In this document: piece after piece, positions 3,339 to 60,536 of the stretch
How the letters are laid out: each line of letters starts with the position of its first letter
Position numbering within the stretch: the first letter of the stretch is position 1
Origin: Anaerolineae bacterium
Lineage (GTDB): Bacteria > Chloroflexota > Anaerolineae > Promineifilales > Promineifilaceae
Direction of reading: 5' to 3'
DNA: 64,000 bases
Assembly (NCBI GenBank): GCA_007123775.1
Contig: SLGK01000114.1
Location: 1 to 64,000 of the forward strand
The notes under the pieces: generated by a model
Databases searched by the model: none
What the model was told of the DNA's origin: nothing
What the model saw: only the letters and a program-made list of their open reading frames with translations
Position numbers and translations under genes: made by a program

Positions 3339-4250
3339 ATGAGCGTCACCTTTCGCCATTATCAACACGACACAGACTATCAGCGCATCAGCGACTTTCT
3401 GATTGCCAATCACCAGACCGGCAACCTCGATGGCAACTGGCTCGAGCCGGCCTGGGAATACATGCACTTTCACCCGGCCTTGCAGCCCGAACACCTGGCA
3501 AAAAACGGGATTTGGGAAGAAGATGGCCAGATTGTGGCCGCTGTCCATTACGAATGGACCCTCGGCGAGGCCTATTTCCAGTTTCATCCCGCTTACCGCC
3601 ACCTGCGTGCCAAGATGCTGGCTTACGCCGAGGCACATCTGCGCGGCTTTTCCCCACAGAATAACAGGCCCTACCTGTGCGCCTTCGTCAACGACAACGA
3701 CCTTCCTTTTCTGGAACTGGTGCAGGCACGCGGTTACAGAAAAGATGCCAACGCCACCCGCCCGCTCTATCGCTTCGACATCCCCGATCCCTTTCCGGCC
3801 ATTCCACTGGCGGACGGCTTTCGCCTGACCAGCCTGGCCGAGGCGTGCGACTGGGCCAAAGTCCATCAGGTCATGTGGCGCGGGTTTGGTCACGGCGACG
3901 ATGTGCCCATGACGGAAGACGAGTTTGACGACCGGCGCAAGATGTTCGACACGCCCAAAGCCCGCCGCGATCTAAAAATCGCAGTCGTTGCCCCCAATGG
4001 AGAGTTCGCCGCCTTCTGCGGCATGTTCTGCGACGAGGCGAGCCAATTCGCCTACGTCGAACCGGTCGCTACCGACCCGCGCTATCGCCGCCTGGGACTG
4101 GGGCGCGCCGCGGTGCTGGAAGGCATCCGTCGCTGCGGGCTGCTGGGTGCAACCATCGCCTACGTCGGTTCTGATCAGCCCTTTTATCAATCGTTTGGCT
4201 TTTACAAAGTCTTCAACAGCGAATGCTGGCGGCGCCGTTTTGACGATTGA
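3339..4250 (+). CDS. GNAT-family N-acetyltransferase (two-domain)
   Basis: Protein of 303 residues, long enough for two tandem GNAT folds. The C-terminal half carries the acetyl-CoA binding motif A (VEPVATDPRYRRLGLGRA) and the closing segment (FYQSFGFYKV) usual in these enzymes. The N-terminal half is a diverged repeat. It would transfer an acetyl group from acetyl-CoA to an amine of unknown identity. It is one of few plus-strand genes in this part of the window and has no operon partner. Confidence 0.85.
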   Translation: MSVTFRHYQHDTDYQRISDFLIANHQTGNLDGNWLEPAWEYMHFHPALQPEHLAKNGIWEEDGQIVAAVHYEWTLGEAYFQFHPAYRHLRAKMLAYAEAHLRGFSPQNNRPYLCAFVNDNDLPFLELVQARGYRKDANATRPLYRFDIPDPFPAIPLADGFRLTSLAEACDWAKVHQVMWRGFGHGDDVPMTEDEFDDRRKMFDTPKARRDLKIAVVAPNGEFAAFCGMFCDEASQFAYVEPVATDPRYRRLGLGRAAVLEGIRRCGLLGATIAYVGSDQPFYQSFGFYKVFNSECWRRRFDD

Positions 4251-42339: not shown

Positions 42340-44603
42340 ACGTACAGCTTCTCCAAAATTGAATCAAGCAGTCGTTCTGATTCCGGTGTTTCTGCCTTGA
42401 TCAGGCGCGTGTATTCACCACCGCGCCGCCATAGTTCCTCATGCGTACCTCGTTCGACGACCTGGCCATTGTTGAGGACTATGATTTCATCACAATCACG
42501 AATGGTGCTTAAGCGATGGGCTACAATCAGGCAGGTGCAGCCACGGCGGCGCAGATTACCGTCGATAATCTTTTCCGTAATGGGATCCAGGGCGCTGGTG
42601 GCCTCGTCGAGTATTAAAATAGAAGGATGGCTAACCAGGGCGCGGGCGATTTCCAGCCGCTGCCGCTGCCCACCGCTAAAGTTGCGTCCTTCTTCTTCGA
42701 TCAGATGGTCATAACCGGCGGCCTGGGCAGTTATTTCATTATGGATATGGGCATCTTTGGCCGCCCGGATGATGGCTTCTTCCGGTATTTGCTTGTCCCA
42801 CATGGTGAGGTTGTCGCGGACCGAACCTTCAAACAGAAATAGTTCCTGGTCAACAATCCGCAGCGAGTGGCTAATGATGGCCCGAGGGAACTCCTCTCGC
42901 TCTCGGCCGTCAAACAATATCTGACCCTCCCAGGGCAGGTATAGACCAGCCACCAGGCGGGCAATGGTAGATTTACCGCTGCCGCTGCCGCCAACCAGGG
43001 CTACGCGCATACCTGGTTCTAACCTCAGGTTAAAATCCTGAATCAGCGGAGGAGACAGGCGGCTGTAGCCAAAGGTCAGGTTGCGTATTTCGATGCTGCC
43101 TATCAGTTTTTGCAGGGGTTGGGAGGTGTCAATAGTGGCGTCGGCTAGATGGACTCGCGGGTCTGGCTCATAATTGGCTACGTCATTGAGGCGACGTACA
43201 ATGCCGTCTATTTCTTGGAGCTGTGTACCCAGGCCAACAACCTGATTGACCGGGGCTAAAAAGCTGGCCATCAAGGTTTGAAAGGCAACCAGAATACCGG
43301 CCGTCATTTGGCCTTCTAAAATGAGAAATGCGCCGACAACCAGGATGACAACGGTGGTTACTTGTGTGAGCAAGAAAGGAACGACGTTGACCATCTGTGT
43401 GGTAGCGCCCAATTCCTGGTTGGCGTTGAATACTTTGGCTTGATACCCGGCCCAGGTAGCAAAGGAATCGGCTTCACGACCGGTTGATTTGACGGTTTCG
43501 ATTTGGGTCAGGCTGTTAAATGTGGTTGAAGAGAGCTTGCCCTGTTCCTGAACCAAACGCTGATTGACATCTTTGCGTCGGCGGGCTACGGTGCGGAGGG
43601 CGACAAAGTTGAGGGCAGCCATTACAATGCCAATTACCGTGAGCGTCACGCTGTATTGGAACATCAGGATGGCGTAAAAACCTATCAAAATAACGTTGAG
43701 TAGGGTGGTAGCCAGGTCGCCCGAAAGCAGTTCGGCTACGCGGTCATTTTGTTCGATACGGGAGCTGATGTCGCCGGCGCCACGCTGGCTAAAAAATTCA
43801 ATCGGCAGGCGCAAAATATGCCAGGTAAGCTGGCTGGCTTTGGTTAGGGCCAGGCGTGTTTCTAACCGCAGTAGGTAGCGCTGCTGCATCCAGGTCAGGG
43901 CGGAACGCAAAACGGCCGTTAACACCATCCCTATCAGCAAGGGGATCATCCATTCCTGGCGGCCGGCACCCAGATAATAATCGACAAAGACTTGTGAGAA
44001 TGCGGGGATGAGCAGGCCGGGAATGACCAGCACCAGGCTGATCAATACGACAAAGGTTAAGGCTGTTTCTAAACCGGATAGCTGCGGCAACAAAGCGGAT
44101 AGCAGGCTGGGCTTCTTGCCCTGGGGCTGAAAATTTTCCCCTTTACTAAAGGTTAAGACCACGCCGGTAAAGGCTTCATCAAATTCTTGGGCGGAGACGG
44201 TGCGTGGACCGCTGGCGGGGTCATTCAGGTAGACGGTATCTTTGTAAAAGCCTTCCAGCACAACAAAATGATTGAAGTTCCAATGAATAATAGCCGGTAA
44301 GGGCATATCGCGTAATCCGGCTGGCTCTTGTCGGTAGCCTTTGGCTACCAGACCATATTTGCGGGCAGCTTTGAGCATATTACTGGCTTTGCTGCCGTCT
44401 CGATTGACACCGCACGCTGTTCGCAGCTCTTCCAGCGGGATGTAGCTGCCGTGATAGCCCAAGATGCTGCCTAAGGCGGCAGCGCCACATTCCACCATTT
44501 CCATTTGTATAACGGTGGGTGTCTTGGCGCGATGCTGGCCTAACATGCGCTTTTTTACTTCCGGCCACATCTCGGTTACTCTCTTGCTCCAGCTTTTACT
44601 CAT
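42336..44603 (-). CDS. NHLM-type peptidase-containing ABC transporter (LanT-like)
   Basis: Protein of 755 residues. The C39 peptidase domain (about residues 28-150) shows the catalytic Cys in IQMEMVECGAAALGSILGYH, the His in IIHWNFNHFVVLEG and the following Asp in NDPASG. Membrane domain about 160-460, then ATPase with Walker A ALVGGSGSGKSTIARLVAGL, signature FSGGQRQRLEIARAL and Walker B ILILDEATSALD. The peptidase would cut the leader after the Gly-Gly of the precursor and export the core. GAGGTGATCTT precedes the ATG. Confidence 0.92.
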   Translation of the reverse strand: MSKSWSKRVTEMWPEVKKRMLGQHRAKTPTVIQMEMVECGAAALGSILGYHGSYIPLEELRTACGVNRDGSKASNMLKAARKYGLVAKGYRQEPAGLRDMPLPAIIHWNFNHFVVLEGFYKDTVYLNDPASGPRTVSAQEFDEAFTGVVLTFSKGENFQPQGKKPSLLSALLPQLSGLETALTFVVLISLVLVIPGLLIPAFSQVFVDYYLGAGRQEWMIPLLIGMVLTAVLRSALTWMQQRYLLRLETRLALTKASQLTWHILRLPIEFFSQRGAGDISSRIEQNDRVAELLSGDLATTLLNVILIGFYAILMFQYSVTLTVIGIVMAALNFVALRTVARRRKDVNQRLVQEQGKLSSTTFNSLTQIETVKSTGREADSFATWAGYQAKVFNANQELGATTQMVNVVPFLLTQVTTVVILVVGAFLILEGQMTAGILVAFQTLMASFLAPVNQVVGLGTQLQEIDGIVRRLNDVANYEPDPRVHLADATIDTSQPLQKLIGSIEIRNLTFGYSRLSPPLIQDFNLRLEPGMRVALVGGSGSGKSTIARLVAGLYLPWEGQILFDGREREEFPRAIISHSLRIVDQELFLFEGSVRDNLTMWDKQIPEEAIIRAAKDAHIHNEITAQAAGYDHLIEEEGRNFSGGQRQRLEIARALVSHPSILILDEATSALDPITEKIIDGNLRRRGCTCLIVAHRLSTIRDCDEIIVLNNGQVVERGTHEELWRRGGEYTRLIKAETPESERLLDSILEKLYV

Positions 44604-44631: not shown

Positions 44632-45420
44632 TTAACGAACGGGTAGTACCAGTTCGACCGGACGCTGTGTACCCATTTGAACGGTAGCAGAGGCAATCGT
44701 GCCAATGAGACCAGGGGGCAGTTGGTCGGCAGCGGTCTCTGTTTCCAGGAAGACACGCACCTCAATGGGTTGCTCTGCTTGAAGCAGGGTATGGCCCAAA
44801 GCGTGGCTCCCCAGCAAGTTGTTGATTTGCTGGGTGGAAACAGGGAATTCGCTAATCGTAGCAATGGTGCCTGACAGTGGGCCGATATTGGCCGCCGAGA
44901 CAGGCTCGACGACGACGGGCATGCCGGCTTCGAGCTGACGGGCCTGGTCTGGCGAGAGGTAGAGGACGGCTTCTAAGCGCACGTCTGGCCCCACAAATTG
45001 GAGATTAGCCAGTGAATCCCCTGCCTGAACCATTTGACCAACAGCAGCGCTTAGGCTCAGAATACGGCCGTCGTACAAACTGCGTACCGGGACAGGTGTA
45101 TCCTGACCGAGGGGCAATATTTCAGCAATGGTCTGATTTTTTGTGACGGTCTGGCCGGGTTCTACATGCCAGGCATATAGTTGACCGTTGTCTACGCCGA
45201 TGATGTTTTTGATGCCGCCGGTGGTGATGAGGGCGGCCGGGGCTGTCTGTTGTAATGGTATGTACCCAAAGATGCCCCAGTAAACGGCCGTAGCCACCAA
45301 TATTGTCAGGCCCAGAAAGGCCAGCCAGCTTCGAGGGCTGGTGACACGCATCAATAAATCAAGCTGCTCCGGGGATGAGAGCCGGTCAAGAGCTACTTTA
45401 CGAAAAATGGCAGAATTCAT
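44632..45420 (-). CDS. HlyD-like membrane fusion protein (NHLM type)
   Basis: Protein of 262 residues, short for an HlyD protein and typical of the NHLM bacteriocin set. One membrane segment (about residues 35-52), then a lipoyl-like beta domain (VDNGQLYAWHVEPGQTVTKN, GRILSLSAAVGQMVQAGD) and a beta-barrel C-terminal half, with no long coiled coil. It would link the C39 ABC exporter to the envelope. AAAGGAGG before the ATG; 28 bp upstream of the ABC1 gene. Confidence 0.88.
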   Translation of the reverse strand: MNSAIFRKVALDRLSSPEQLDLLMRVTSPRSWLAFLGLTILVATAVYWGIFGYIPLQQTAPAALITTGGIKNIIGVDNGQLYAWHVEPGQTVTKNQTIAEILPLGQDTPVPVRSLYDGRILSLSAAVGQMVQAGDSLANLQFVGPDVRLEAVLYLSPDQARQLEAGMPVVVEPVSAANIGPLSGTIATISEFPVSTQQINNLLGSHALGHTLLQAEQPIEVRVFLETETAADQLPPGLIGTIASATVQMGTQRPVELVLPVR

Positions 45421-47027: not shown

Positions 47028-47369
47028 ATGTCTACACATGTTGGTGATCGCTTTGTGGCGCAAGAGCAAGTTTATATCAAAGCTGCAACTGATGAGAGTT
47101 TCCGCAACGCACTTTTTGAGGATGCCCATCAAGCCCTCGCTGCCGAAGGGATTAATATTCCTGCTGATACTGAAGTTGAGCTTGTTTCAGAGAATCCAAG
47201 CAATGGCATCAAGTTTATTGTCCCAGAACTACTCGTTTCAGAAATTGAACTAACAGACGAAGAGTTAGAAGTCGTTGCCGGTGGTGCTGCTTCACCAGAT
47301 TGTACCGTACTCAGTTGTTGGACCTGGTCCTGCATCATTAACTCAAGTCGAGCGCAACTTCAAGAGTAG
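47028..47369 (+). CDS. NHLP-family lanthipeptide precursor peptide
   Basis: Peptide of 113 residues. Residues 1-86 form a nitrile-hydratase-like leader (YIKAATDESFRNALFEDAHQ, then IKFIVPELLVSEIELTDEEL) ending VVAGG. The 27-residue core begins AASPDCTVLSCWTWSC and has three Cys (92, 97, 102), five Ser and two Thr, two Trp and a polar tail SSRAQLQE. Up to three (methyl)lanthionine rings are possible. Rare bias toward AT, strong ribosome site. Cleavage after Gly86 by the C39 exporter at 42336-44603 is expected. Followed by a terminator. Confidence 0.9.
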   Translation: MSTHVGDRFVAQEQVYIKAATDESFRNALFEDAHQALAAEGINIPADTEVELVSENPSNGIKFIVPELLVSEIELTDEELEVVAGGAASPDCTVLSCWTWSCIINSSRAQLQE

Positions 47370-48580: not shown

Positions 48581-51500
48581 TTATTGGATAGCCAAAATAT
48601 CTGGTAGGGTTGGATCAGCAAGATAAAGAAGACTATAACCAATTCCCGCGAGACCTTGGAACATACCTAGACAGTAGGTCAGCGGGAATTTTGAGGATAC
48701 TGTATAATGGCCACGAGAATATTTGCGCTTAATAACTAATTGTAACCGGTTACGAAGTTGGGCTTGTAATTCAGAGTCTTTGATAGTGCGGGCTAATGAC
48801 TGCAGTATGAAGAGACGCCCGAGATTTCCGCAACATAAATGATCGACACCCCTAATTGGTTGTGACAGTGTAAAATCTACTGCGCGTTGAATGTCACTGC
48901 GAACCAAATCTGAATCCAGGACTGCTAATCCGGCTGCCCGGCCAATTGCAATGCCGGGGGCACCATTACACCAACTGCTGTTACTAACGTAGTTGATTTC
49001 ATTCGGGTTTCTGAGATCGGGCCAATTGCCGTATTCGGTAGAAAACGTTGCGTGTTCATAGGCAATGCCTTCTTTAGCCGCTTCCAGATACCGATTATCC
49101 CGCGTCACGGCATAAAGTCTCACCAAAGCAAGTATAATTCCCGCAGCGCCATGCGACAAACCGGTACCCAGTTGCCCGGCTACGGTTGGCCAGGCGCGAA
49201 GACCATCATAGGGTGATGGTTGCCTCGTTGCCAGTAAATGCTCGCCACAATGTCGAGCAAGTGACAGTACGCGGTTACTATTGTTCAGATTATGCAGAGA
49301 TAAAAGGGCTAGAGCTGTTCCAGCCACACCACGTAGTAAATCAATATGAGTATCTTGATATATATATTCAGGTGAAATCAGGTCTGCAAACTTCTCAGCG
49401 GAATCGAGCAAGTCTTTATGTGCAGATAAGCGGGCCAATGTAGCAAACGAATAGACCAGACTGCTGGCTCCACGAGAAGTGCCCAGTTCTTCTGCACGAT
49501 AAAACTTACTCAATTGACGTTTATTCTTTGCATCAAGTTCATTAAGCCGCTGGGTGATCCCCTTAATAACTTTGTTGGTGACAAGTTCTTCAATTTCTGA
49601 ATTGCCTGTTACTTTCGCATACGCCATCAGAAATACGGCAACCCCAGATAAACCTTCATAGAAACCATGTTTCAGGGGACCTAGTTGATAACGTCCTATT
49701 TCGTCAAAATACTGCATGCCGTACCAATTCAAGTAAGAATTGCTATCAGTTTTAGCGAGCTGAAGAATGAAATCGGCAATCTGTTTGGCTTCACCTAACA
49801 ATAGTTGCTTCGAAATATCTACAGATGATTTTGTATCAAAATCTAAGGAAGAATCTGTAGCATACTCATCAGACAGACCGTGGAAGTCCATCCTGTTTTG
49901 AGATGACAGTGCCGTTTTGACAATATCAAGCTGCTGTGCCAAATCATCTGCTCCGAGTCTGTGCAAACGCTGCAAAACGTTGTCTAGACTAGGAGAGGCA
50001 AAATAATTATCTATCGTATCTCCCGTACTGGTGTATAAGACAGTATCAATAGGACGGGAGGCAAAAAATGGTATGTCGCCTTGCAACATGTCATGCACTT
50101 CTGCACGCTGTATCAACCACTCGGCCGGCTGTTCTTTTAGTGACATAAAGGCTATTGCTGTACGATCTAGCTCCAGGCTGGTTGCAATGCCATGTTGCAA
50201 GAACTGAGGATGAACTGTTCGTTGCAACAGTTTGCCATAAACGTCTGTATTGCGAAAGAGAAATCTCGTTGGATATGCTGCCAATCTTGCTAGAAGTTCC
50301 GTCTGAATTAATTGCTGTCTATTGTCAACCAGAAAGTGATACATCTGCTCAAACCCCCAACAGATTTCGGCGACATATTTTGATGACGGCTGTATTTCAT
50401 CGTGTAACTGAACAACATTGGTTCCCAGTGTTGTCTCTTTCTCCAAAATTGTTCGCTTCATTGTATCCTGGTTAATATTTTTCCATCCCGGCATTTTTGT
50501 TTTGCCCGTTTTCATTAAACCAAGCCCGCTTAGATCATTTTTTGTGTCTAAGTTTTGGCTAGGAAGTAATCCTGTTGTGATTACCGTATCAAAGGAAAGG
50601 TTATGAAATTCAGACAAACCATTTTTACCCATTTCTTTTGGAAGGGGGGCCATCAATGTCTCTAAATCAAAAAGAACAGGGTATTCGCCATGGACAATCA
50701 CATTCTCATGATGACCATCGCTACCCCCTAGAACGTACCAAAGGCATAACAAAGTGCCAGCTCGTTGATAATACTGTTTTACATCTCCGATTGTTCCACA
50801 GGGCTTTTGCTCAATAAATTCCACCCAGCCATATTCCGTTCGGGCAATCACTTGCCACTTTTTGAAGTCAAGGGGAAATCCTTGTTCTTCAATCCAATCA
50901 ACAATTGCAAAATAGGCTGCATCTATTGCAATAGGTTTTGGTTTGTAAACAACTCGTGTTTGATCATCAATTGTTAAAATATGAACCGTACGACCGCGAT
51001 TGTGTGGATCAGATAACTCCAGCCTGAAGTCAGTTACACAGTGACAACCACCAAACTTCTTGGTTATATCGTCCCAATCTATTTCAAGTCTTTGTAAAAA
51101 TTCCGCATAGCTTTCTTGCCATATCTCAATGCTTTGCCCCCAAAATTTGGCCAGCACCGGGTAGTTTAGAAAGATTTGATGCAAACCATCATCTAGTAAA
51201 TAGTCAATAAATGATTGGTAGATAGCATCTCCGTTTTGCTCTGGCAGCTTTGCATCTTTAGCTTGTATGCGAAATTGATCAAATATGGCGAAAAACACAA
51301 ATTCGCTTAAACTTCCCAGTTTCTTCGATAGGCTGTAAGCTAATTTTGCCTGTGCCTTGTCGCTCAACCGTGACCAGATGAAATCGACTTTATCAGACAA
51401 TTCGCGCATTGCTCGATTGACAATGGGATAGAATATATGTTGAAAAGGAACTGGGTCATTTCCTAATTCGATCATCAGATAATCATCGATTAACGGTTTA

Positions 51501-51814
51501 CACTCTAGGCTAAGCTCTGTTAAGTAGTTGTCTAAAATTGACATCCACCTGCATTCGTTTACCGGTCCATTCCATACCATATCGCCAAGAAGTTGCCTGG
51601 CCTCATCTTCTGTAAAATTGTCCCAAGCTAATCGCTTGTGTAGTGCGTCCTGGTTATGGGTACCCAAGGCCTTGCGCCATTGAGATAAGATCTGTTCAAT
51701 CTTTTCAGATGATTGTGACGATATGGGCTGGTACCTACTATCTGTTGCCCGTTCAATGAATGTTGCTGACTGACCAATAATTAGAGCTTGTTCTTGTTGG
51801 TTAAAAAATGACAT
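48581..51814 (-). CDS. lanM: class II lanthionine synthetase (LanM, ProcM-like)
   Basis: Protein of 1077 residues from ATG 51814 (a TTG 14 codons upstream also fits). The dehydratase half carries the LanM kinase-like core GGSDGHHENVI near residue 364 and VLFDLETLM beyond it. The C-terminal cyclase half has LanC-type zinc ligands: WCNGAPG (Cys about 949) and HLCCGNLG (Cys about 994 and 995). The third ligand is Cys rather than His, as in the substrate-tolerant ProcM group. It dehydrates Ser/Thr and adds Cys thiols to form lanthionines in the precursor at 47028-47369. The gene has no ACGGCCGT octamer and is AT-rich relative to flanking DNA. Confidence 0.93.
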   Translation of the reverse strand: MSFFNQQEQALIIGQSATFIERATDSRYQPISSQSSEKIEQILSQWRKALGTHNQDALHKRLAWDNFTEDEARQLLGDMVWNGPVNECRWMSILDNYLTELSLECKPLIDDYLMIELGNDPVPFQHIFYPIVNRAMRELSDKVDFIWSRLSDKAQAKLAYSLSKKLGSLSEFVFFAIFDQFRIQAKDAKLPEQNGDAIYQSFIDYLLDDGLHQIFLNYPVLAKFWGQSIEIWQESYAEFLQRLEIDWDDITKKFGGCHCVTDFRLELSDPHNRGRTVHILTIDDQTRVVYKPKPIAIDAAYFAIVDWIEEQGFPLDFKKWQVIARTEYGWVEFIEQKPCGTIGDVKQYYQRAGTLLCLWYVLGGSDGHHENVIVHGEYPVLFDLETLMAPLPKEMGKNGLSEFHNLSFDTVITTGLLPSQNLDTKNDLSGLGLMKTGKTKMPGWKNINQDTMKRTILEKETTLGTNVVQLHDEIQPSSKYVAEICWGFEQMYHFLVDNRQQLIQTELLARLAAYPTRFLFRNTDVYGKLLQRTVHPQFLQHGIATSLELDRTAIAFMSLKEQPAEWLIQRAEVHDMLQGDIPFFASRPIDTVLYTSTGDTIDNYFASPSLDNVLQRLHRLGADDLAQQLDIVKTALSSQNRMDFHGLSDEYATDSSLDFDTKSSVDISKQLLLGEAKQIADFILQLAKTDSNSYLNWYGMQYFDEIGRYQLGPLKHGFYEGLSGVAVFLMAYAKVTGNSEIEELVTNKVIKGITQRLNELDAKNKRQLSKFYRAEELGTSRGASSLVYSFATLARLSAHKDLLDSAEKFADLISPEYIYQDTHIDLLRGVAGTALALLSLHNLNNSNRVLSLARHCGEHLLATRQPSPYDGLRAWPTVAGQLGTGLSHGAAGIILALVRLYAVTRDNRYLEAAKEGIAYEHATFSTEYGNWPDLRNPNEINYVSNSSWCNGAPGIAIGRAAGLAVLDSDLVRSDIQRAVDFTLSQPIRGVDHLCCGNLGRLFILQSLARTIKDSELQAQLRNRLQLVIKRKYSRGHYTVSSKFPLTYCLGMFQGLAGIGYSLLYLADPTLPDILAIQ

Positions 51815-51877
51815 GGTTAACTGGCTGTTCCTTTTCGTGATGAAGCAACTCCTCAATCAAGCGGGGTGAAAGCCATT

Positions 51878-51955: not shown

Positions 51956-52723
51956 TCAGGCCGACATCAATTCTGGGGTTTCCAGCAGTCGTTGAGTTAG
52001 GACATATACACCCTCTGTAAATGGATGACCAGGATGGTTAATGGAGAATAGTGATGCACTCCCGTTTTCAGCAATGTCGATTGATAGGGGTAGCAGAGCG
52101 GCTGCGTCACACTGATAGGCCTCTTCTACCTGTTCTCTTACCGCTTCAAAATCGTATTCTGGCGGGACCTTGTTGACTACCAGAGTAATTTCAGGCACGC
52201 GCAGGCGGCGGGCCACGTCCACGGTGACGCTGGTACCCTGGAAGTCCTGCTGGTCGGGGCGCAGGATGATGACTAGGCTGTCGGAAATGGCAATGGAGAG
52301 CAGCGTTTCTTCGTTGAGGCCGGGATGGGTATCGATAAGCAGGTAATCGAGTGATAGGGCAGCAATCAAGTCACGGAAAGCGCCGTGCATATCGCTGGCA
52401 TCATATTTTTCGCGCAGAATGCGAGCGATGTCGTTAGGGTCTAAACTGGAAGGGACCAGGTAAACTTCGCCACCTTGCTCGGCCTCGTATACCTTATGAG
52501 CAGCATCTTCAATGGTGCAGTTGCCCCAGAGAAAGTCGTTGAGGGTATGGGTGATCGTTGTATCGGTCAACCCAAAAATCACATGTATGCCAGGCGATTG
52601 GATGTCGGTGTCAAAAACACCCACTCGATAGCCTTCCTGCGCCAGGAGCGCGGCCAGGTTAGCGGTCACGTTGGATTTGCCAGTGCCGCCACGAAAAGAG
52701 TGTGTTGAAATTATTTTGGTCAT
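51956..52723 (-). CDS. MinD/ParA-type P-loop ATPase
   Basis: Protein of 255 residues. The deviant Walker A is FRGGTGKSN, with Arg where the signature Lys usually stands, followed by VFDTDIQSPGIHVIFGL and LDYLLIDTHPGLNE (Walker B-type). C-terminal CpaE/BcsQ-like features (VVNKVPPEYD). GGAGG precedes the ATG at 52723. It follows the wHTH/cNMP protein by 14 bp and precedes lanM, so it is probably part of the same transcription unit. Its role in the locus is unknown; spatial or signalling control of secretion is possible. Confidence 0.8.
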   Translation of the reverse strand: MTKIISTHSFRGGTGKSNVTANLAALLAQEGYRVGVFDTDIQSPGIHVIFGLTDTTITHTLNDFLWGNCTIEDAAHKVYEAEQGGEVYLVPSSLDPNDIARILREKYDASDMHGAFRDLIAALSLDYLLIDTHPGLNEETLLSIAISDSLVIILRPDQQDFQGTSVTVDVARRLRVPEITLVVNKVPPEYDFEAVREQVEEAYQCDAAALLPLSIDIAENGSASLFSINHPGHPFTEGVYVLTQRLLETPELMSA

Positions 52724-52737
52724 GGGATGCCTCCATC

Positions 52738-54423
52738 TCAAACTAGAATAAGTTGATTGTCTACGCTTACGGCAACGGCTTCTTGCTTCATATCCCGCTT
52801 CAAGTCCGTCGCAAAATGAATAACGTCATCGAGGTGCGTATCGAGCGCCTTTTTAGAAACGAAGGTACGCACGATTGTTACTTGCTCTGTTACCAGGCCA
52901 CTGTCTTCGCTGCGCCAGGCACCCTCTGCATCACTGCTGGTGGCCCCGCCAAACAGGTTGCCTAGAAATGAAAGGGTGGCTTTTACCTGCTGGCTGTTAT
53001 CAACTTCCTGGTCTACATCAACTGTTGAGGGTACGAATAGGGCCACCGCATGGTTGAGCGAGAGCCGCCGGTACACTTCGTGTAATGCTTCTGATAGCGG
53101 GTTGTCCAAGTCCGCTTTTACCAGCGGTTTGTTTTGGGCGGCGCTGGTGGTCAGCGCCTCTTTATCATCTGGTAGGGCAAGATGAAACCGGGGATCGATG
53201 TTGGCAGCTTGTTGGCTGGTAGCGTTGAGTGCTAATACACGCTTTTGGCCAGGGAAAGAGTAAGGCTGTAGTTTTGACCACCTCTGTAAACCTTCGTCAG
53301 CCCCATTTTCATCTTTCGTGAGTGTAAGCAAGGTCTGGGCCTGTCCGCGCAGGCGCAGCGTTAGTTCACTTTGGGTTTCGCTGCCGCTATCGCAGATAAT
53401 GTATTCATATTGCGCCTGCAGGTCACTCAAAAGCATGTCGAGTTGGACCTGGGGCGCATAACTGCTTGGGTCTATTTTGGTGAGCCGATCCGGGCCGTCG
53501 CTGTAAACGGTGATAGTCGCCAGCCCTACTTTTTTGTGGGACACGGCCGTTACGTCACCCAAATCTTGTAAAGCAGAGGCTTGTTCTGTAGCCCAGAACA
53601 GTGTTTTTCCACCCTGTTCTGAATCACTTTGCTGCTGAGCCAGCCAGGCCAAATTAAGGGCAAATGTTGTCACGCCAGCTTGAGAGTGTACACCTTCTAC
53701 CACCCACAGCTTGCTCTGCTGTTGTAAGTGAGCCTGCTGACAAATGGTCAACTGCTGGCTCAAGTAATGGGACAACGCGTGGCCAAGCTGGCTATACTCC
53801 TGGGCAAAGGCAAAGAAGTCTGAGGCGGGCCAGGTGAGTAGGGTGGTGGGGGTAGCGGCCGTATACGTCGTCATAATTGGTGTTTGACTCAAGCTCTCAG
53901 CCAAACCGACCCAGCTCCCACGATGCAAATAGCCACTCCTCTGTTTCGTGTACCTGCTTTTTAGCCGCGCCTGTGCCAATAACCCCTGCTTCACCAGCCA
54001 AACATGCTCCGTCTTTTGCCCTTGCCAAACCATTACTTCATCGGGCAACAACGTGTGTTCTTGACCCAACTCCAACAGTTTCTCCCTTTCGGCTAGTGGC
54101 AATACTGAGGTAACAGGCACTTCAGCCAAAAACGCATTGGGTGTTTGCTCCAATAAATTGACAATTTTAGCCGGCATGTTGCGAACGGTACGCTGCTTGA
54201 ACTGGAATCGCGTCGAAAAAACACGTTGACCATTTAGCAACTGTTCAACAACACGCCCCTGACCTAACAAATTGTTAACTGTTTTCTCTACAGCAGCCGT
54301 TGCCAGATTCAATTTGGCAGACAGGTCGAAAACAGTCAATTTGGGATGCCGGGTCAGGCAGCGCAAAATCGTCTGTTCATCAGACGACATAGATAGCAGG
54401 TCAATGGGAGAAAGAGCGGACAT
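52738..54423 (-). CDS. wHTH - cNMP-binding-like - degenerate P-loop ATPase protein
   Basis: Protein of 561 residues with three parts: an N-terminal winged helix (about residues 1-75), a cyclic-nucleotide-binding-like beta-roll (about 95-225, including HTLLPDEVMVWQGQKTEHVW), and a MinD-like ATPase region (from about 240). The P-loop reads GVHSQAGVTTFALNLAWLAQ: the Lys that contacts phosphate is absent, so ATP hydrolysis is doubtful. The first 75 residues resemble the 89-residue protein encoded just upstream. A regulator that senses a ligand and pairs with the adjacent active ATPase is a reasonable guess. Confidence 0.7.
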   Translation of the reverse strand: MSALSPIDLLSMSSDEQTILRCLTRHPKLTVFDLSAKLNLATAAVEKTVNNLLGQGRVVEQLLNGQRVFSTRFQFKQRTVRNMPAKIVNLLEQTPNAFLAEVPVTSVLPLAEREKLLELGQEHTLLPDEVMVWQGQKTEHVWLVKQGLLAQARLKSRYTKQRSGYLHRGSWVGLAESLSQTPIMTTYTAATPTTLLTWPASDFFAFAQEYSQLGHALSHYLSQQLTICQQAHLQQQSKLWVVEGVHSQAGVTTFALNLAWLAQQQSDSEQGGKTLFWATEQASALQDLGDVTAVSHKKVGLATITVYSDGPDRLTKIDPSSYAPQVQLDMLLSDLQAQYEYIICDSGSETQSELTLRLRGQAQTLLTLTKDENGADEGLQRWSKLQPYSFPGQKRVLALNATSQQAANIDPRFHLALPDDKEALTTSAAQNKPLVKADLDNPLSEALHEVYRRLSLNHAVALFVPSTVDVDQEVDNSQQVKATLSFLGNLFGGATSSDAEGAWRSEDSGLVTEQVTIVRTFVSKKALDTHLDDVIHFATDLKRDMKQEAVAVSVDNQLILV

Positions 54424-54424
54424 C

Positions 54425-54694
54425 TTAATTGAAAAGTGTATCTAGCAAGCCAACACTGCTGCGTTTAGGTTTAGGCTTGCCCTGCATTTGAACTTGATAT
54501 TTTCTATCGCTATCTATATTTAACCGTGATTCTTTAACCATCTTGTAGACTACACCTTCCAGCTCATCTACCGGAATTCTGGTCAAGCCGGCAATTTCTT
54601 GCAAAGTCAGCTGGGGTTTTCGTATCAAACACCGAATAACATCTTGCTCCGTATTTGTAACAGTTAATAAATCCAGTGGAGACAACATAGCCAT
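54425..54694 (-). CDS. small winged-helix protein
   Basis: Protein of 89 residues: LSPLDLLTVTNTEQDVIRCL then KPQLTLQEIAGLTRIPVDEL. The pattern parallels the first 75 residues of the 561-residue neighbour (LSPIDLLSMSSDEQTILRCL), so the two are paralogues or the small one is a split-off copy. The ATG at 54694 has GGAG at about 10 nt. The gene is immediately upstream of the large one and starts the operon. Confidence 0.7.
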   Translation of the reverse strand: MAMLSPLDLLTVTNTEQDVIRCLIRKPQLTLQEIAGLTRIPVDELEGVVYKMVKESRLNIDSDRKYQVQMQGKPKPKRSSVGLLDTLFN

Positions 54695-54859
54695 AACGTG
54701 CTTCTCCTTCACTTATAATTGAGCTCCGTTAATTAACATTCTCGTGCAAGTACTACAATACTAATTATCGGCAAACGTAACAAAGATTACCTGATATAAT
54801 AATCATCTTTCGGTTGTGATTCTTTATACAAGAGTGGTGTGACTTTGACCCTATGCTCG
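54695..54859. promoter_or_regulatory. promoter region of the wHTH/ATPase operon
   Basis: 165 bp between the second regulator and the small wHTH gene, rich in AT. On the minus strand it contains AAGTCAC followed after nine bases by GTATAAA, a one-sided match to the inverted repeat seen upstream of comX. No certain -10/-35 boxes. Confidence 0.4.
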
Positions 54860-55567
54860 TTAACGATAGACAATCCGGTTGATTCTGGCCCAAGCCGCTG
54901 CCTCTGCTCTAGATCGGATCCAGGGGATTTTGCGATACGTGTTGTGAATATGGGATTGAACGGTATTGGGAGCTATTTGTAGCTGCCGGGCAATTTCCTC
55001 GTCTGTCAAACCTTTAGCTAACAACTTAATCACATTTAATTCCGTCGGGCTCAAATCTTGATATAGTTCAGGGATATAGCGAAGCAGTGTATTTTGAACT
55101 TGCTGATTCAATACCGTTTGCCCAGCAACCACGGCCCGAATACCATCTAGGACAGTAGCTAGCAGGTCACTTTTTAGAAGATACCCCCTAACGCCAGCAG
55201 CCAACATACTCCAAATATACTGCTTGTCCTGATAACTGCTAAAAACGAGAATCTGGGGATGCCCGTTGATTGATTCCTGCTGTCTTAACAGATTTAGCTG
55301 GCGGGCCACCTGAATACCCCCCAACCGCGACAGGTTAATGTCGAGTACAATTACCTGTGGAGATAAGGTTTGAGCCAACCGCATGGCTTCTTGGCCGTCA
55401 CCTGTTTCTCCGAGGACAACAATATCTTGCTGCCTTTCGATTTCCTGCCGCAAACCTTCGCGGATTATCTGGTGCGCGTCAGCAAGCAAGACACCAATTG
55501 TGTTGACGGTATGAAAACGCGGATCATGGCCTAAACCTGAACGTGCCGGCAGCAAGGATTCAATCAT
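54860..55567 (-). CDS. NarL/LuxR-family response regulator (second ComA-like protein)
   Basis: 235 residues from ATG 55567; a TTG at 55633 lies within the inverted repeat and is an unlikely start. The receiver holds IGVLLADAHQIIREGL, phospho-acceptor Asp in VIVLDINLSR, T/S at VFSSYQ and Lys in GYLLKSD; the HTH has LSPTELNVIKLLAKGLTDEE and TVQSHIHNTYRK. It follows RR1 by 163 bp. Probably a DNA-binding output of the ComP-like kinase. Confidence 0.85.
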   Translation of the reverse strand: MIESLLPARSGLGHDPRFHTVNTIGVLLADAHQIIREGLRQEIERQQDIVVLGETGDGQEAMRLAQTLSPQVIVLDINLSRLGGIQVARQLNLLRQQESINGHPQILVFSSYQDKQYIWSMLAAGVRGYLLKSDLLATVLDGIRAVVAGQTVLNQQVQNTLLRYIPELYQDLSPTELNVIKLLAKGLTDEEIARQLQIAPNTVQSHIHNTYRKIPWIRSRAEAAAWARINRIVYR

Positions 55568-55631: not shown

Positions 55632-55654
55632 AAGTCACTAGTCGATTGTGACTT
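55632..55654. promoter_or_regulatory. AAGTCAY-N9-RTGACTT inverted repeat upstream of the second regulator
   Basis: AAGTCAC at 55632-55638 and GTGACTT at 55648-55654 separated by nine bases. It is 65-87 bp upstream of the likely start at 55567. An identical arrangement with AAGTCAT/ATGACTT and the same 9-bp spacer lies upstream of comX. Candidate binding site of a NarL-type regulator. Confidence 0.65.
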
Positions 55655-55730: not shown

Positions 55731-56429
55731 TTATTCAATTTCAACAATCCGATTCTCCCAGGCCCAGGCTACTGCCTCAGAACGTGTGCGAACATTTGGC
55801 AGCTTTTTATATATGTTCATGACATGGTTTTTGACCGTACCGACGGCGATTATCAAAGCCTCAGCGATTTCGTCGTTGGTGTAACCTTTGGCCATCAAAC
55901 GCAGCACTTCTAACTCTCGCTCGCTCAGACTATGTTTCGGTTCGTCGCGGCGGGTCAAGAGCAACTTTTGCACCGGCAGGCTCAAGGCTGGTTCTCCTTT
56001 CGCCACCTGCCGGATTCCGACGACAATGCGGTCTGCTGATTCATCTTTCAATAAGTAACCTTTCGCGCCGGCCGCAAACAGACTATAGACATATTCAGGC
56101 TCACAATATGCGCTGAGAATCAAGATATGCGGTGGCCAGGGAGCTGAGGTATCAGTCCGATCATTTGCATCAACCGTCATGTGGGTAATCTTTTCGGCCA
56201 CATCGGTCCCTTGTAGCCCTGGCATATTGATGTCCAGAAGGAGAACATCCGGACGTAGCGACTGGACTATTTGCAATGCTTGTTCTCCGTCTGTAGCTTC
56301 CCCAATCACCTCTATATCGGCGTGCCGTTCCAGCGCACTGCGAATGCCGGAACGCACAACATGATGGTCATCGGCCAAAATTATACGGATTCTTCTGGCG
56401 TCTGTTTTGGATGCTTCATCTACGGTCAT
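55731..56429 (-). CDS. comA: NarL/LuxR-family response regulator (ComA-like)
   Basis: Protein of 232 residues. Receiver: RIILADDHHVVRSGIRSALE with acidic pair DD, phospho-acceptor in VLLLDINMPG, Lys in GYLLKDE. C-terminal HTH: LSERELEVLRLMAKGYTNDE and VKNHVMNIYKKL. Located 24 bp after the histidine-kinase gene, with GGAGGACAATT before the ATG, so co-expressed. By position and domains it corresponds to ComA. The symbol denotes this analogy only. Confidence 0.87.
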   Translation of the reverse strand: MTVDEASKTDARRIRIILADDHHVVRSGIRSALERHADIEVIGEATDGEQALQIVQSLRPDVLLLDINMPGLQGTDVAEKITHMTVDANDRTDTSAPWPPHILILSAYCEPEYVYSLFAAGAKGYLLKDESADRIVVGIRQVAKGEPALSLPVQKLLLTRRDEPKHSLSERELEVLRLMAKGYTNDEIAEALIIAVGTVKNHVMNIYKKLPNVRTRSEAVAWAWENRIVEIE

Positions 56430-56453
56430 AATTGTCCTCCAAAATGATGTGGT

Positions 56454-58847
56454 TTAAACAGGAATAGAAACTTCCAGTCGAGTGCCAAGAGCCGGAGCAG
56501 AGACTATATCAAATGTACCCTGTAACAGTTCAACCCTTTCCCGCATCCCTACCAATCCAAAATGATCGTTGTTCATCAGCCTACCTAAACGCTGTGGAAC
56601 CTCAAAGCCTGTCCCGTTGTCGCCAATAGTCAGCCTGACCCGTTCTGGTTGAATAGTCAGGTCAATATCAATTTGGGTAGCAGATGCGTGTTTGCGAATG
56701 TTGGATAATGCTTCGCCCGTGCAGCGGAAAAGACAAAGGGCAGTATCCTCATCAATGGGCAGCTTGCGATCTCCCTCTATGTTCAGATTCACGCCAATGC
56801 TGTGGTCCATTTCAAAGCGATTTACCAAAGAGCGAATAGCAGGTATCAACCCCAGGTCTAGAGCCGCCGGCCGCAAATCCTGGCATAAGTGGCGAGTTGT
56901 TTCAATGAGCGCACCGATTTCGCTTTCTAAGTCTAGTCTTTGCTGCCCATTGTCAGTAGAGGCTGTCTGATAATGCACAGCAGTCGCCTCAATCTGGGCT
57001 GTATGGTACTTCAAACCAACCAGTTGTTGAATGATCTGGTCGTGCAGCTCACGGGCAATACGTTTTCTTTCTTCCTCCCGTGTTCTGAAAATTTCCTTTT
57101 GGTATTGCTCGTTTTCATTAACTTTTTCTTCCAATTCGCCAATAAGCTGGGCATTCTGGAAGATAACGCTGGCTTGACGAGACACAACGTCCAGAATTTC
57201 CAAGTCTTCGGCGTTAAATAAATCACCACCATATTTTGGACCTAGGAGCAGGAGGCCAAGCGATTGTTTTAGCCCTTGTATTGGTATCCACAAGCGAACT
57301 GAATCGCTTTCAATCAGTTGTGCTTCTTCGTCAGTTAAATCCCAATCAGCTGCTTTGTGCCGAATTTGCTGGTTATTTACTGGCTGGGTTTGTTGTTTCA
57401 AGAAACGGATGATACTTGGCAATCCGTCTGAGTACAGCGTGTCGAGCAACAAAGGATTTTCGGTGTTTTCAGACGCATAGATACTGGTGGGTGTATCGAT
57501 GTCTTCTTGCCACAGTAAATAGACCCAGTTGACGCGCATCGTTTTTTGTACGCTCATGGTCAACGTTTGGGCAATGGTTTCAATACCTGTGGTTGATTCT
57601 AGTGTATGTGTTACTTGGCTGACAACTGTGGGGTAGTCATACCATCCACCATACATCAGGTAATCAACCAGGTTTTGTAAGCGACGGTAAAGTGGATTGT
57701 AAACGACAACAAGTGTCATGACCATTAGCAAGTTTACAAGCGGGTTAGTCAGTACATTGTCATCTGACAAGGATTGAAGCAGATAGGAAATGGCAAAATA
57801 TAAGACGCAAAGAGTACCAATTACGTAAACGGCCGTTGCACTGCGGCTGATATAACGCTCCAATCGGATAAACTGATAGCGTCTGATGGCATAGCCGTAA
57901 CCTAAAGGCAACACAATCAAAAACAGCAAGGAAAATGGTATGGGCAGCAACGCCTCGCCAAATAGAATAGCGGGAAAAATTGACAATGTTAGCAAAGGCA
58001 CACCGGCCACGAAACCACACAGTGCAACCATACCAACCTGCCGTTTGGTAACGGGCGAGTAACTGTTACGATACGCTCTGACCAATAACCAAAGTACCAG
58101 AATAAGGCCAACTAACAACCACAGGTTTAGGGTGAGGGCATATGTCGTTGCTAAGATGCCAGAGGGTGTTGACTCAAGGGCCAAAACCAATCTCAAAGTA
58201 ACACCCAACAACGTGATGCCATAGACACCAATAATCGGCTTGCTTGTTTGCCAGAGAGTCTGGGCTACCGGAAAGATCAGGTGAAAATGAATCGCCAATC
58301 CTATGGCCCACCAGGTAGCAATGTGAGAAAAGTGGCCGGCCCAGGCCTGACTCGTTACAGCCCCTAAGGCAAGGCTTGCTCCCAATGCCTGGCACCACAA
58401 GAAGAAGAGAATATTTTGCTTGGTAAACGTCGGCGACAGCAAAATGACGGCCAGGCCAACCAGCCAAAACGCTAGGGCAACAAAATTGAGCGAGAGACGA
58501 ACGATTAAGATAAAAGGTGGCGCTGGTTCTGTATAGAGCGTTTCAATGATAAGTCGCTCACCAGCACGCTCTACCTCAAGTTGTAAGATATCTCCATGCT
58601 GCCACTGGTAATAGGGAAAACTGCTGTCAGCTAAGAGAACACCGTCAATACGAAGGACCTGATCGTCAACCAGCAGGTCTGAGTTCTGATGGGCATAATA
58701 GACCACGCCATTGTCTGCCCATAAGGCACCGAGGTCTGGTTGGATAATTACTTGCCAGGCCGACCAAATTATGACAAACAGCGACACGGCCGTTACAAAC
58801 GCAAGGCAAATTTGAGCTGCAATTGTCTTTTGGTAGGTTCTGAACAT
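56454..58847 (-). CDS. comP: ComP-like sensor histidine kinase (PDZ-like, multi-TM, GAF, HisKA_3)
   Basis: Protein of 797 residues. One membrane segment (about 10-30), an extracytoplasmic PDZ-like segment (LLVDDQVLRIDGVLL near 60 and QHGDILQLEV near 83), then about eight membrane segments to residue ~360, a GAF-like region (~410-560) and the HisKA_3 kinase: H box RIARELHDQIIQQL with phospho-His near 602, N box EALSNIRKHA near 713, DNGTGF near 743 and GLVGMRER near 764. This PDZ-like plus multi-TM layout is that of Bacillus ComP, the ComX receptor. It lies between comQ-like and comA-like genes. Confidence 0.85.
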   Translation of the reverse strand: MFRTYQKTIAAQICLAFVTAVSLFVIIWSAWQVIIQPDLGALWADNGVVYYAHQNSDLLVDDQVLRIDGVLLADSSFPYYQWQHGDILQLEVERAGERLIIETLYTEPAPPFILIVRLSLNFVALAFWLVGLAVILLSPTFTKQNILFFLWCQALGASLALGAVTSQAWAGHFSHIATWWAIGLAIHFHLIFPVAQTLWQTSKPIIGVYGITLLGVTLRLVLALESTPSGILATTYALTLNLWLLVGLILVLWLLVRAYRNSYSPVTKRQVGMVALCGFVAGVPLLTLSIFPAILFGEALLPIPFSLLFLIVLPLGYGYAIRRYQFIRLERYISRSATAVYVIGTLCVLYFAISYLLQSLSDDNVLTNPLVNLLMVMTLVVVYNPLYRRLQNLVDYLMYGGWYDYPTVVSQVTHTLESTTGIETIAQTLTMSVQKTMRVNWVYLLWQEDIDTPTSIYASENTENPLLLDTLYSDGLPSIIRFLKQQTQPVNNQQIRHKAADWDLTDEEAQLIESDSVRLWIPIQGLKQSLGLLLLGPKYGGDLFNAEDLEILDVVSRQASVIFQNAQLIGELEEKVNENEQYQKEIFRTREEERKRIARELHDQIIQQLVGLKYHTAQIEATAVHYQTASTDNGQQRLDLESEIGALIETTRHLCQDLRPAALDLGLIPAIRSLVNRFEMDHSIGVNLNIEGDRKLPIDEDTALCLFRCTGEALSNIRKHASATQIDIDLTIQPERVRLTIGDNGTGFEVPQRLGRLMNNDHFGLVGMRERVELLQGTFDIVSAPALGTRLEVSIPV

Positions 58848-58871
58848 TGCCCCGATATTTGTTGGGTAACA

Positions 58872-59804
58872 CTAACCTGCCCTTGGTACAGATTGTGGTG
58901 CGATATGGTCCAATATACGCTGCAACTGAGCTTTGATGTCTGGTGCGAGCTGCATTGTTTGCACAAGCTGGTATGCTTCCTGCCGGATAAGTGACATTTG
59001 GGTCACTAAGTAAACTACAGCACCACTACCAATAATCAGCCGATGGGCCAACTCTGCCTTTTCTGATTCAGAAACGGCCGTATCAAGCAACGCCAGTAAA
59101 GCTTCTTTTTGGGCCTGTGGCAGCACGGTTACTGCATAACCAACAGGTAAACTATGCTTTGCAGCAGCAAATAAATCCTCTTTTGAAGCCAAATCAACTA
59201 GATCATCATGAATTTGGTCCAACAAACCCAGTTTGTGACCAAATTGACGATATAAGTTTAACTCCTGATGGTCAGCACAGGCAACATAGCCACCAGCCCA
59301 ACAAACCAAGCCTAGACTGGTACCAGATTTTGTCTCAGCGATTTGCCAACTTTTCTCCAGCGAGGGTGACGATAGGGACAGGTCTTCATGTTGACCAGCA
59401 CAAGTCTGTAACAAGCCAACATGAAAGCCTTCACGAATTGCTTGAGCCGATTCCACAGCTACCCCGCTTGCTTCTAGCTGACTGAGCAAGTAGCCGGCTG
59501 TGAAGATAAGCCCCGTGGACACGTTTAAGTCCACGGGCATGGTTCCCGTTTCGGCGTTGCCATCCTCAATATCGTCGAGTATGCGGGCCGCGTGCCTTAG
59601 CAAATGCCACGCTGACACAATTGGCATAACCTGTTGGCGACTACCGCCATTTGCCTCACATAGCAGTATTGGTAGTGCCGACAGTTTATGTCCAGCTTCG
59701 TTATTTGGTTGGGTCAGTTTGCAACTTCGTCTTAGGGCATCTGCGTAAGCTTGATTGATATGAGGATTAGACCATAGTGGGTCGACCAGTGAAGGTTCAA
59801 TCAT
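58872..59804 (-). CDS. comQ: ComQ-like isoprenyl transferase (polyprenyl-synthetase fold)
   Basis: Protein of 310 residues in the trans-prenyl-diphosphate-synthase fold. The first Asp-rich motif is DDIED at residues 77-81 and the second is DQIHDD at 196-201, both able to bind Mg-diphosphate. It is adjacent to the ComX-like peptide gene (18 bp downstream). ComQ attaches farnesyl or geranyl to a conserved Trp of ComX; here W70 of the neighbour. A role only in lipid biosynthesis is the alternative, but its position between a small peptide and a kinase argues for ComQ. Confidence 0.78.
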   Translation of the reverse strand: MIEPSLVDPLWSNPHINQAYADALRRSCKLTQPNNEAGHKLSALPILLCEANGGSRQQVMPIVSAWHLLRHAARILDDIEDGNAETGTMPVDLNVSTGLIFTAGYLLSQLEASGVAVESAQAIREGFHVGLLQTCAGQHEDLSLSSPSLEKSWQIAETKSGTSLGLVCWAGGYVACADHQELNLYRQFGHKLGLLDQIHDDLVDLASKEDLFAAAKHSLPVGYAVTVLPQAQKEALLALLDTAVSESEKAELAHRLIIGSGAVVYLVTQMSLIRQEAYQLVQTMQLAPDIKAQLQRILDHIAPQSVPRAG

Positions 59805-59822
59805 GTAACCATTCTACTCAGC

Positions 59823-60041
59823 TTACGGAACCCACTGCTGATCCGGTGACGGGTGGGGGAAGTAATCCTTTGCAAGCAGATCAAAGATGGTTTCTCCGTC
59901 TTGGATGAGGGCCAATATTGCTTGAACTTCTGCTGGGGCAATATTGAATCGGTCAATAATTACTTGTCCATTTTGGACGATCTCAGCCAGCAAAACAGGG
60001 TTGGAGACAATCTGATACACAACTTCATGCAAAGTATTCAT
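59823..60041 (-). CDS. comX: ComX-like pheromone precursor
   Basis: Peptide of 72 residues. Helical N-terminal half (LHEVVYQIVSNPVLLAEIVQ), then RFNIAPAEVQAI, then KDYFPHPSPDQQWVP. The spacing of NP-x-x-L, the F-x-x-x-x-x-E-x-x-x-I pattern and a C-terminal Trp three residues from the end follow B. subtilis ComX (tail RQWGD). Strong ribosome site GGAGGAAAAAA. It heads the operon comX-comQ-comP-comA1. ComX similarity is by eye; a general small-RiPP precursor of the same fold is the alternative. Confidence 0.72.
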   Translation of the reverse strand: MNTLHEVVYQIVSNPVLLAEIVQNGQVIIDRFNIAPAEVQAILALIQDGETIFDLLAKDYFPHPSPDQQWVP

Positions 60042-60536
60042 TTTTTCCTCCGATTACGAATGTATGGACCTAAACTACATTCTACCCCGTCTGTGATTTC
60101 TTTCCTAGAAATAAAGTCATTTTCTGACTATGACTTTCGCCTTATTGGAGAAAGTTGCTCCAGCACCTGCTATCTTTAACGAAGATTTCCAGCAACCCGT
60201 ATCGTCTGGCACGTGCGGTAGCTGCATTTCGTACCGTTTGAAGCTGACGTTACCGGCCGTTGGCACCACAATTACCCCCGTACCGGTCAGCTTGCCAAGA
60301 TGCAGCTTGTCCCCAATGTGCAAAACCGGGACTGGGTCACGCCGCAGTGAAACCGCTGCCCGCCGCGAGTTGACCGGGATCAGAAACATCGCCTGGCATT
60401 TAGGCGCAACGGCCGCGGCCAGGTCGCTGGTGACGCTTTACACAAAGAGCCTGGCCAGGGCAAATACGACGACTTTTTCGCTAGTTGCAGCAGAGCGCGG
60501 CCTGTTGCTGATTGTCTGAGCTGACCCAAGCAAACG
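60042..60536. other. intergenic region upstream of comX
   Basis: 495 bp. Apart from the inverted repeat, a minus-strand stretch of about 90 codons (60117-60389) is open and reads LRRDPVPVLHIGDKLHLGKL, but I recognise no family and do not call a gene. The segment before it (VTSDLAAA) also occurs near 38010. It may be debris from a larger gene. No promoter boxes confidently seen. Confidence 0.35.
60113..60137. promoter_or_regulatory. AAGTCAY-N9-RTGACTT inverted repeat upstream of comX
   Basis: AAAGTCAT and ATGACTTT arms separated by nine bases. It is about 72-96 bp upstream of the comX ATG. The same arms and spacing are found upstream of the second regulator. Candidate autoregulatory site. Confidence 0.65.

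Follow-up and report, generated by a model that had tools for sequence, protein, structure and literature searches.

The window analysed here is a 64,000-nucleotide stretch of contig SLGK01000114.1, part of a 5.6-Mb genome (96% complete) of an Anaerolineae bacterium of the phylum Chloroflexota. The original prediction had placed in it a comQXPA-like circuit for quorum sensing by a prenylated peptide, made up of four genes next to a lanthipeptide locus. All four open reading frames (ORFs), encoding a small peptide (X), a prenyl-synthase-like enzyme (Q), a sensor kinase (P) and a response regulator (A), were found on the minus strand in the order X-Q-P-A, and their coordinates and domains were borne out. 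The run and the palindromes on either side of it are as follows.

60114 to 60136, no strand: operator palindrome AAGTCAT-N9-ATGACTT, exact match, 72 bp upstream of X
59823 to 60041, minus strand: X, putative 72-aa signal precursor with C-terminus QQWVP; GGAGG ribosome-binding site; homologues upstream of Q in relatives
58872 to 59804, minus strand: Q, 310 aa, similar to trans-isoprenyl diphosphate synthases (trans-IDS; ComQ/PalQ type), presumed Trp-prenyltransferase; polyprenyl synthase fold, first Asp-rich motif (FARM) kept
56454 to 58847, minus strand: P, 797 aa, ComP-like sensor histidine kinase with a first transmembrane helix (TM1) and PDZ-like, multi-TM, GAF-like, HisKA_3 and HATPase parts
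55731 to 56429, minus strand: A, NarL/ComA-type response regulator (Response_reg 6e-22, GerE 6e-18); after P in relatives too
55632 to 55654, no strand: operator palindrome AAGTCAC-N9-GTGACTT before the gene of a second regulator, RR2; exact match, second of two in the genome

The GGAGG site stands just ahead of the ATG of X, and Trp70 is at position -3 from the C-terminus. In relatives, homologues of X (41 and 33 bits) precede Q. When ten X peptides were aligned, Trp70 was the sole invariant column; the Chloroflexota peptides measure 66-79 aa and usually carry one to eight residues after the Trp. A script search for ribosome-site-led ORFs of 50-100 aa upstream of Q, with a Trp in the last ten residues, yielded one at 20 of 26 Q loci (19 of 25 distinct loci, as L054 and L114 appear to be one locus) versus 2 of 30 housekeeping prenyl-synthase genes. 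With the homologues and the recurring gene order, this puts the X-Q-P-A arrangement beyond chance.

The predicted likeness of the peptide to ComX stood in part. Besides the Trp near the C-terminus, ComX (PF05952) was the Pfam family that matched most X members, yet weakly (2 of 10, best E 0.058), and the NHLP-clan leader model Os1348 (NF038399) matched 3 of 10 (best 3.5e-8; window X unmatched). The peptides therefore did not score to unrelated leaders of ribosomally synthesized and post-translationally modified peptides (RiPPs) alone. Since both models match some X peptides, the family lies, at the level of sequence, between ComX and NHLP-type leaders, a position also seen in PalPXQ. ComX and the NHLP-type leaders of RiPPs may thus be linked. 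A genome-wide search with PF05952 matched in no control genome and was discarded as uninformative; a match of window X to Tex_N (0.034) was ascribed to chance. X has no double-glycine site, so the C39 exporter of the nearby NHLM genes is no obvious processor of it.

Other small ORFs were seen near Q genes. The upstream peptides at L053, L054/L114 and L120 were of a second type that has a GFG motif and ends, for example, in QGLWDRK or LWTPPGPV; L054/L114 carried two of these ORFs in tandem. Possible additional RiPP precursors were two proteins of 125-144 aa that resemble each other and end in ELDWSPL, near Q-P-A in relative G076 (L036:1957-2334 and 3421-3855) and a 137-aa protein with a Cys-rich end (CDYCCCCTPCTCCT) near X-Q-P-A in G031 (L034:3587-4000).

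Q carries FARM (DDIED, 77-81) and the second Asp-rich motif (SARM; DDLVD, 200-204) and matched Pfam polyprenyl_synt (1.5e-12). It was modelled confidently in a trans-prenyl-synthase fold (predicted local distance difference test, pLDDT, 88), with 6kd7 and Ord1 as the best Foldseek matches (TM-score about 0.77 for Ord1). The Pfam match and the two motifs would also suit an ordinary isoprenyl diphosphate or terpene synthase, with the small ORF and the kinase as incidental neighbours. Chain-elongating synthases bind isopentenyl diphosphate (IPP) through the motifs GKxxRP and a post-FARM RR. Both motifs were kept in the nine housekeeping synthases compared (one with RH for RR) and lost, with FARM retained, in every Q and every ComQ compared. 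Housekeeping synthases formed one side of a branch in the Q tree (100/99), and grouping window Q with them was rejected by the approximately unbiased (AU) test (p 4e-11), so that Q does not cluster with housekeeping IspA/GPPS. The same genome already has two separate housekeeping synthases (222 and 214 bits versus 47 for Q). Considered with the upstream Trp ORFs and a Q-P fusion described below, these results make an ordinary synthase very improbable indeed.

ComQ and the Chloroflexota Q proteins both fell outside the housekeeping clade, with no supported order between them, in a final tree that excludes the long-branch rows (Herpetosiphon, pBM700 and L104-L106). A clade of ComQ with L100-L102 (92/84) had support too weak to use. 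In its trans-IDS fold, kept FARM, lost IPP site and separation from housekeeping synthases, Q resembles ComQ. Because window Q keeps SARM, which ComQ lacks, it may be closer in type to PalQ. Q would attach a prenyl group to Trp70 of X. Ord1 (PDB 9v4g), a farnesyltransferase of free Trp, is among the best fold matches to Q and has the same Q-x-x-D segment at SARM, but its substrate is free Trp and no pheromone or kinase is reported for it (PMC13290415).

P had been predicted to combine a PDZ-like and multi-TM sensor with a HisKA_3 domain, and both domain matches (Pfam HisKA_3 1.6e-9, HATPase_c 1.2e-9) and the predicted structure agreed. The model showed TM1, a five-strand domain and further membrane helices (pLDDT 68), and in Foldseek the five-strand domain resembled PDZ domains at E about 0.05-0.1 (probability 1.0). 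Anoxybacillus ComP, picked as such from its place in an annotated comX locus, was matched by a profile built from the Chloroflexota sensors, with 80 bits over the whole sensor, PDZ-like part included. P thus has a multi-TM sensor homologous to that of ComP together with HisKA_3 and HATPase domains, and its genome encodes no other sensor of this kind save for one short PDZ-like piece. From its domain matches and its gene position after P, A is a probable counterpart of ComA. In G053, a 1067-aa protein (L105:13178-16381) unites a Q domain with a PDZ-TM-GAF-HisKA_3-HATPase kinase, and this fusion points to a functional tie between Q and P. The first Asp-rich motif of the fused Q domain is degenerate (DAVQD), and a separate Q is encoded upstream.

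X could instead be a prenylated RiPP effector rather than a pheromone: Q would lipidate it into a membrane-active peptide, and P and A would monitor or regulate production or immunity, an account that might hold for PalX-PalQ-PalP too. NHLP-clan leader features are common to X, RiPPs and PalX (PMC10853753), and X-Q-P-A is situated in a lanthipeptide cluster. However, the whole P sensor is homologous to a pheromone receptor, Q is fused to a sensor kinase in G053, and at L034, L035 and L041 X-Q-P-A stays together although the lanthipeptide block is missing.

To survey conservation, 98 relatives were searched with Q and the neighbourhoods were then read. The order X-Q-P-A was conserved in G040, G044, G024, G031, G010 and G005, with variants elsewhere; in G012 the regulator after P lay on the opposite strand. 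Sequence divergence was deep despite the kept order, with about 25-48% identity of Q in the relatives' X-Q-P-A loci to window Q. By the Q and sensor searches, Q stood beside a P-type sensor in at least 22 of the 98 relatives. The phylum-wide survey was run with the kinase sensor profile because the Q-profile search was dominated by housekeeping synthases. Almost every sensor match above 200 bits in these relatives had Q adjoining (exception G085), and matches below about 190 bits were left out of the count, since some of them (L122, L126-L128, L130) are generic PDZ-TM kinases that lack a Q.

The claimed lanthipeptide locus was also found, with a LanM synthetase, a LanA precursor bearing an NHLP leader and a complete set of NHLM export genes, which mark it as class II. 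RR2, the operator palindrome, LanA and the NHLM genes are parts of the locus beyond those originally predicted. Four genes separate A from LanM: RR2, a small winged-helix protein, a 561-aa protein with winged helix-turn-helix (wHTH) and cyclic nucleotide monophosphate (cNMP)-binding-type domains, and a MinD-like ATPase.

54860 to 55567, minus strand: RR2, second NarL-type regulator, conserved in L031, L032, L033 and L038
54838 to 54847, minus strand: half-site CAAAGTCACA upstream of the wHTH/cNMP operon
54425 to 54694, minus strand: wHTH95, small winged-helix protein; weak HTH matches, part of the conserved block
52738 to 54423, minus strand: 561-aa protein, wHTH plus cNMP-binding-type domain; part of the conserved block
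51956 to 52741, minus strand: MinD/ParA-like ATPase by domain match; part of the conserved block
48581 to 51856, minus strand: LanM, class II lanthipeptide synthetase (TIGR03897, 789 bits)
47028 to 47369, plus strand: LanA precursor with NHLP leader (leader_NHLP TIGR03793, 2e-16, above cut-off), AGG cleavage site and Cys/Ser/Thr-rich core
44632 to 45420, minus strand: NHLM-type HlyD secretion protein (TIGR03794, above cut-off)
42336 to 44603, minus strand: NHLM ABC1 exporter with C39 peptidase (TIGR03796, 1095 bits)
39352 to 42339, minus strand: NHLM ABC2 exporter (TIGR03797, 959 bits)

The probable start of RR2 is an ATG at 55567; with the TTG at 55633, which gives the longest ORF, the gene would touch the operator. 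The wHTH, wHTH-cNMP and MinD-like genes at 51956-54712, to which relatives add a Cache/HAMP protein, accompany X-Q-P-A and LanM. The block RR2-wHTH-cNMP-(Cache/HAMP protein)-MinD was also present downstream in G040, G044, G024 and G010, and LanM, LanA and an NHLM exporter adjoined it in three of these four, that is, in all with enough contig. The X-Q-P-A unit occurred without the block in G031, G076, G012 and G005 and is therefore a module of its own.

The operator consensus is AAGTCAY-N9-RTGACTT. Two exact copies were present in the genome, both at the X-Q-P-A locus, compared with about 0.08 expected, the pattern itself having been read off this locus. Independent relatives also have it upstream of X, exact in L031, L032 and L033 and with two mismatches in L038, and this recurrence is free of that circularity. 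A one-mismatch copy on contig C318, with no convincing gene downstream, was attributed to chance. In five clusters, 14 of the 19 regions preceding X, RR2, wHTH or LanA held the half-site AAAGTCAY, versus 0.5 on average and 4 at most after shuffling; this significance is overstated, since these very regions served both to choose the half-site and to count it. In the simplest reading, A or RR2 would bind the palindrome, so that X-Q-P-A would come under positive feedback and the lanthipeptide units would be controlled as well. Such an operator would make the circuit self-inducing, a further point against X as a membrane-active end product, which we regard as quite improbable.

The comQXPA-like reading of the locus is supported by these comparisons, and we consider it likely that the locus encodes an autoinducing quorum-sensing circuit of the comQXPA kind, based on a prenylated-Trp peptide, that switches on the class II lanthipeptide cluster. 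X would be made as a 72-aa precursor whose leader docks on Q, and Q would prenylate Trp70, probably with a C10-C20 group. Trimming and export of the C-terminal part would follow, and at sufficient density this peptide would bind the outer PDZ-like/multi-TM sensor of P. PDZ domains bind C-termini, so the lipidated C-terminus of X is possibly sensed in the PDZ-like domain. P would phosphorylate A, and A (or RR2) would bind the operator and raise both X-Q-P-A and the RR2, wHTH and LanA units, giving lanthipeptide at high density.

Only the last step differs if this is a real prenyl-peptide sensor whose natural output is something other than the lanthipeptide, with the LanM cluster as a chance neighbour or otherwise regulated. 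Several X-Q-P-A loci have no LanM nearby and window LanA has no full half-site, which would suit such an arrangement. On the other hand, the window and three relatives have the RR2-wHTH-cNMP-MinD block and the LanM, LanA and NHLM genes alongside X-Q-P-A, and half-sites precede LanA in L032 and L033. We think a different output unlikely.

Several observations besides the circular choice of the half-site weigh against the proposed lanthipeptide-inducing circuit. The remainder of the predicted ComX likeness did not stand, as window X had no match to PF05952 in the Pfam search. Likeness between the families was modest: the X family aligned to six ComX peptides in hhalign (one, of B. subtilis 168, in agreement with annotated ComX) with 48% probability (E 1.8e-4, 41 collinear columns), and the best pairwise shuffle p was 0.007, with Anoxybacillus ComX. 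The script search found no recognisable Trp peptide at the Q loci L036, L052 and L103, and neither a processing protease nor an exporter for X was identified. Absence of SARM, a trait of the ComQ type, does not hold for window Q with its DDLVD. The region upstream of window LanA, as noted, is without a full half-site, and the full Chloroflexota X-Q-P-A loci all come from unnamed or metagenome-assembled genomes.

We know of no described peptide pheromone in Chloroflexota. If the whole circuit, with its operator and candidate output cluster, holds across the phylum, lipidated-peptide quorum sensing extends to a new one. Dozens of candidate Trp-prenyltransferase/peptide pairs are offered for biocatalysis, and control of lanthipeptide production in uncultured bacteria becomes directly testable in laboratory hosts.

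In the open-licence PMC literature, ComX-type signalling was described from Firmicutes alone. A 2014 census found comQXPA in Firmicutes and none outside (Dogsa 2014, PMC4008528), the Chloroflexi entry of a 2022 survey is a histidine kinase-response regulator pair alone, by annotation (PMC8895600), and Chloroflexota are absent from a 2026 review of peptide prenylation (PMC13290415). The circuit is a known kind of system in a new phylum with new features. Of the novelty originally claimed beside lanM, the phylum stands, whereas the pairing of ComX with lanthipeptides is already on record for 22 Bacillota genomes (PMC12715929). The X-Q-P-A order is likewise new for the Chloroflexota loci but not in itself, as it occurs beside a lantibiotic on Priestia megaterium pBM700.

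Shared with comQXPA of Bacillota (ComQ IPR033965, ComX PF05952) are a short precursor with a Trp near the C-terminus, a trans-IDS-like enzyme without the IPP site, a PDZ-like multi-TM HisKA_3 kinase, a NarL-type regulator and frequently adjoining bacteriocin genes (skfA in Anoxybacillus; lanthipeptide clusters, PMC12715929). The order there is Q-X-P-A, in contrast to X-Q-P-A in the Chloroflexota loci read, and ComX is about 55 aa, whereas Chloroflexota X is 66-79 aa with an NHLP-like N-part and scores below the ComX model. Chloroflexota Q forms a separate clade and keeps SARM in many members, while ComQ lacks SARM (PMC10853753).

PalP-PalX-PalQ of Paenibacillus alvei shares a kinase, an NHLP-leader precursor with a C-terminal Trp and a Trp-prenyltransferase with the SARM Asp residues, PalQ being compared by its published description (PMC10853753). 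The Trp is the last residue of PalX, and PalQ does not accept C-terminal extensions (PMC13290415), whereas the Chloroflexota peptides usually carry residues beyond it. No response regulator is listed for the Pal cluster, whereas the Chloroflexota loci have A. Priestia megaterium pBM700/p5_CACC119 has the X-Q-P-A order, a precursor ending EWV and an adjoining gallidermin-type lantibiotic; there Q is very divergent, no PDZ domain was detected in the sensor and the lantibiotic is of class I. The operon on these Priestia plasmids (L065:4119-7958 and L063) appears to have been overlooked, with annotations of hypothetical protein and polyprenyl synthetase, and no report on it was found in the open-licence PMC literature.

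More tentatively, and with some doubt, we propose that signalling by prenyl-Trp peptides forms a large and ancient family with its centre in Chloroflexota, in which ComX, PalX and NHLP-leader RiPPs would form one precursor superfamily and Bacillus comQXPA one branch. The X-Q module would feed NarL regulators, hybrid kinases, an HD-GYP protein acting on cyclic di-GMP and the fused prenyltransferase-kinase.

Variant loci were also recorded. At L099:8266-11751 (G356), a peptide ending WWWS is followed by Q and by a sensor with GAF and HD-GYP domains and no kinase, a possible prenyl-peptide input to cyclic di-GMP turnover. L100, L101 and L102 (G430, G335 and G349) encode peptides ending FWL, GWL or GWF, then Q and a hybrid kinase, about 1080 aa long, with HisKA, HATPase and receiver domains; their Q proteins group weakly with ComQ. 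A related module is present in a cultured Chloroflexota strain, on plasmid pHAU01 of Herpetosiphon aurantiacus DSM 785 (L059, Haur_5072 to Haur_5069), with a LuxR regulator, a Q-like "hypothetical", a histidine kinase and an "abortive infection" (CPBP-type) protein; X was sought on this plasmid and no Trp peptide was found. On L060 (CP065518, a 'Stenotrophomonas rhizophila' plasmid), comQ and comX are nearly identical to those of Lysinibacillus, and this may be a Bacillota plasmid recorded under a wrong name.

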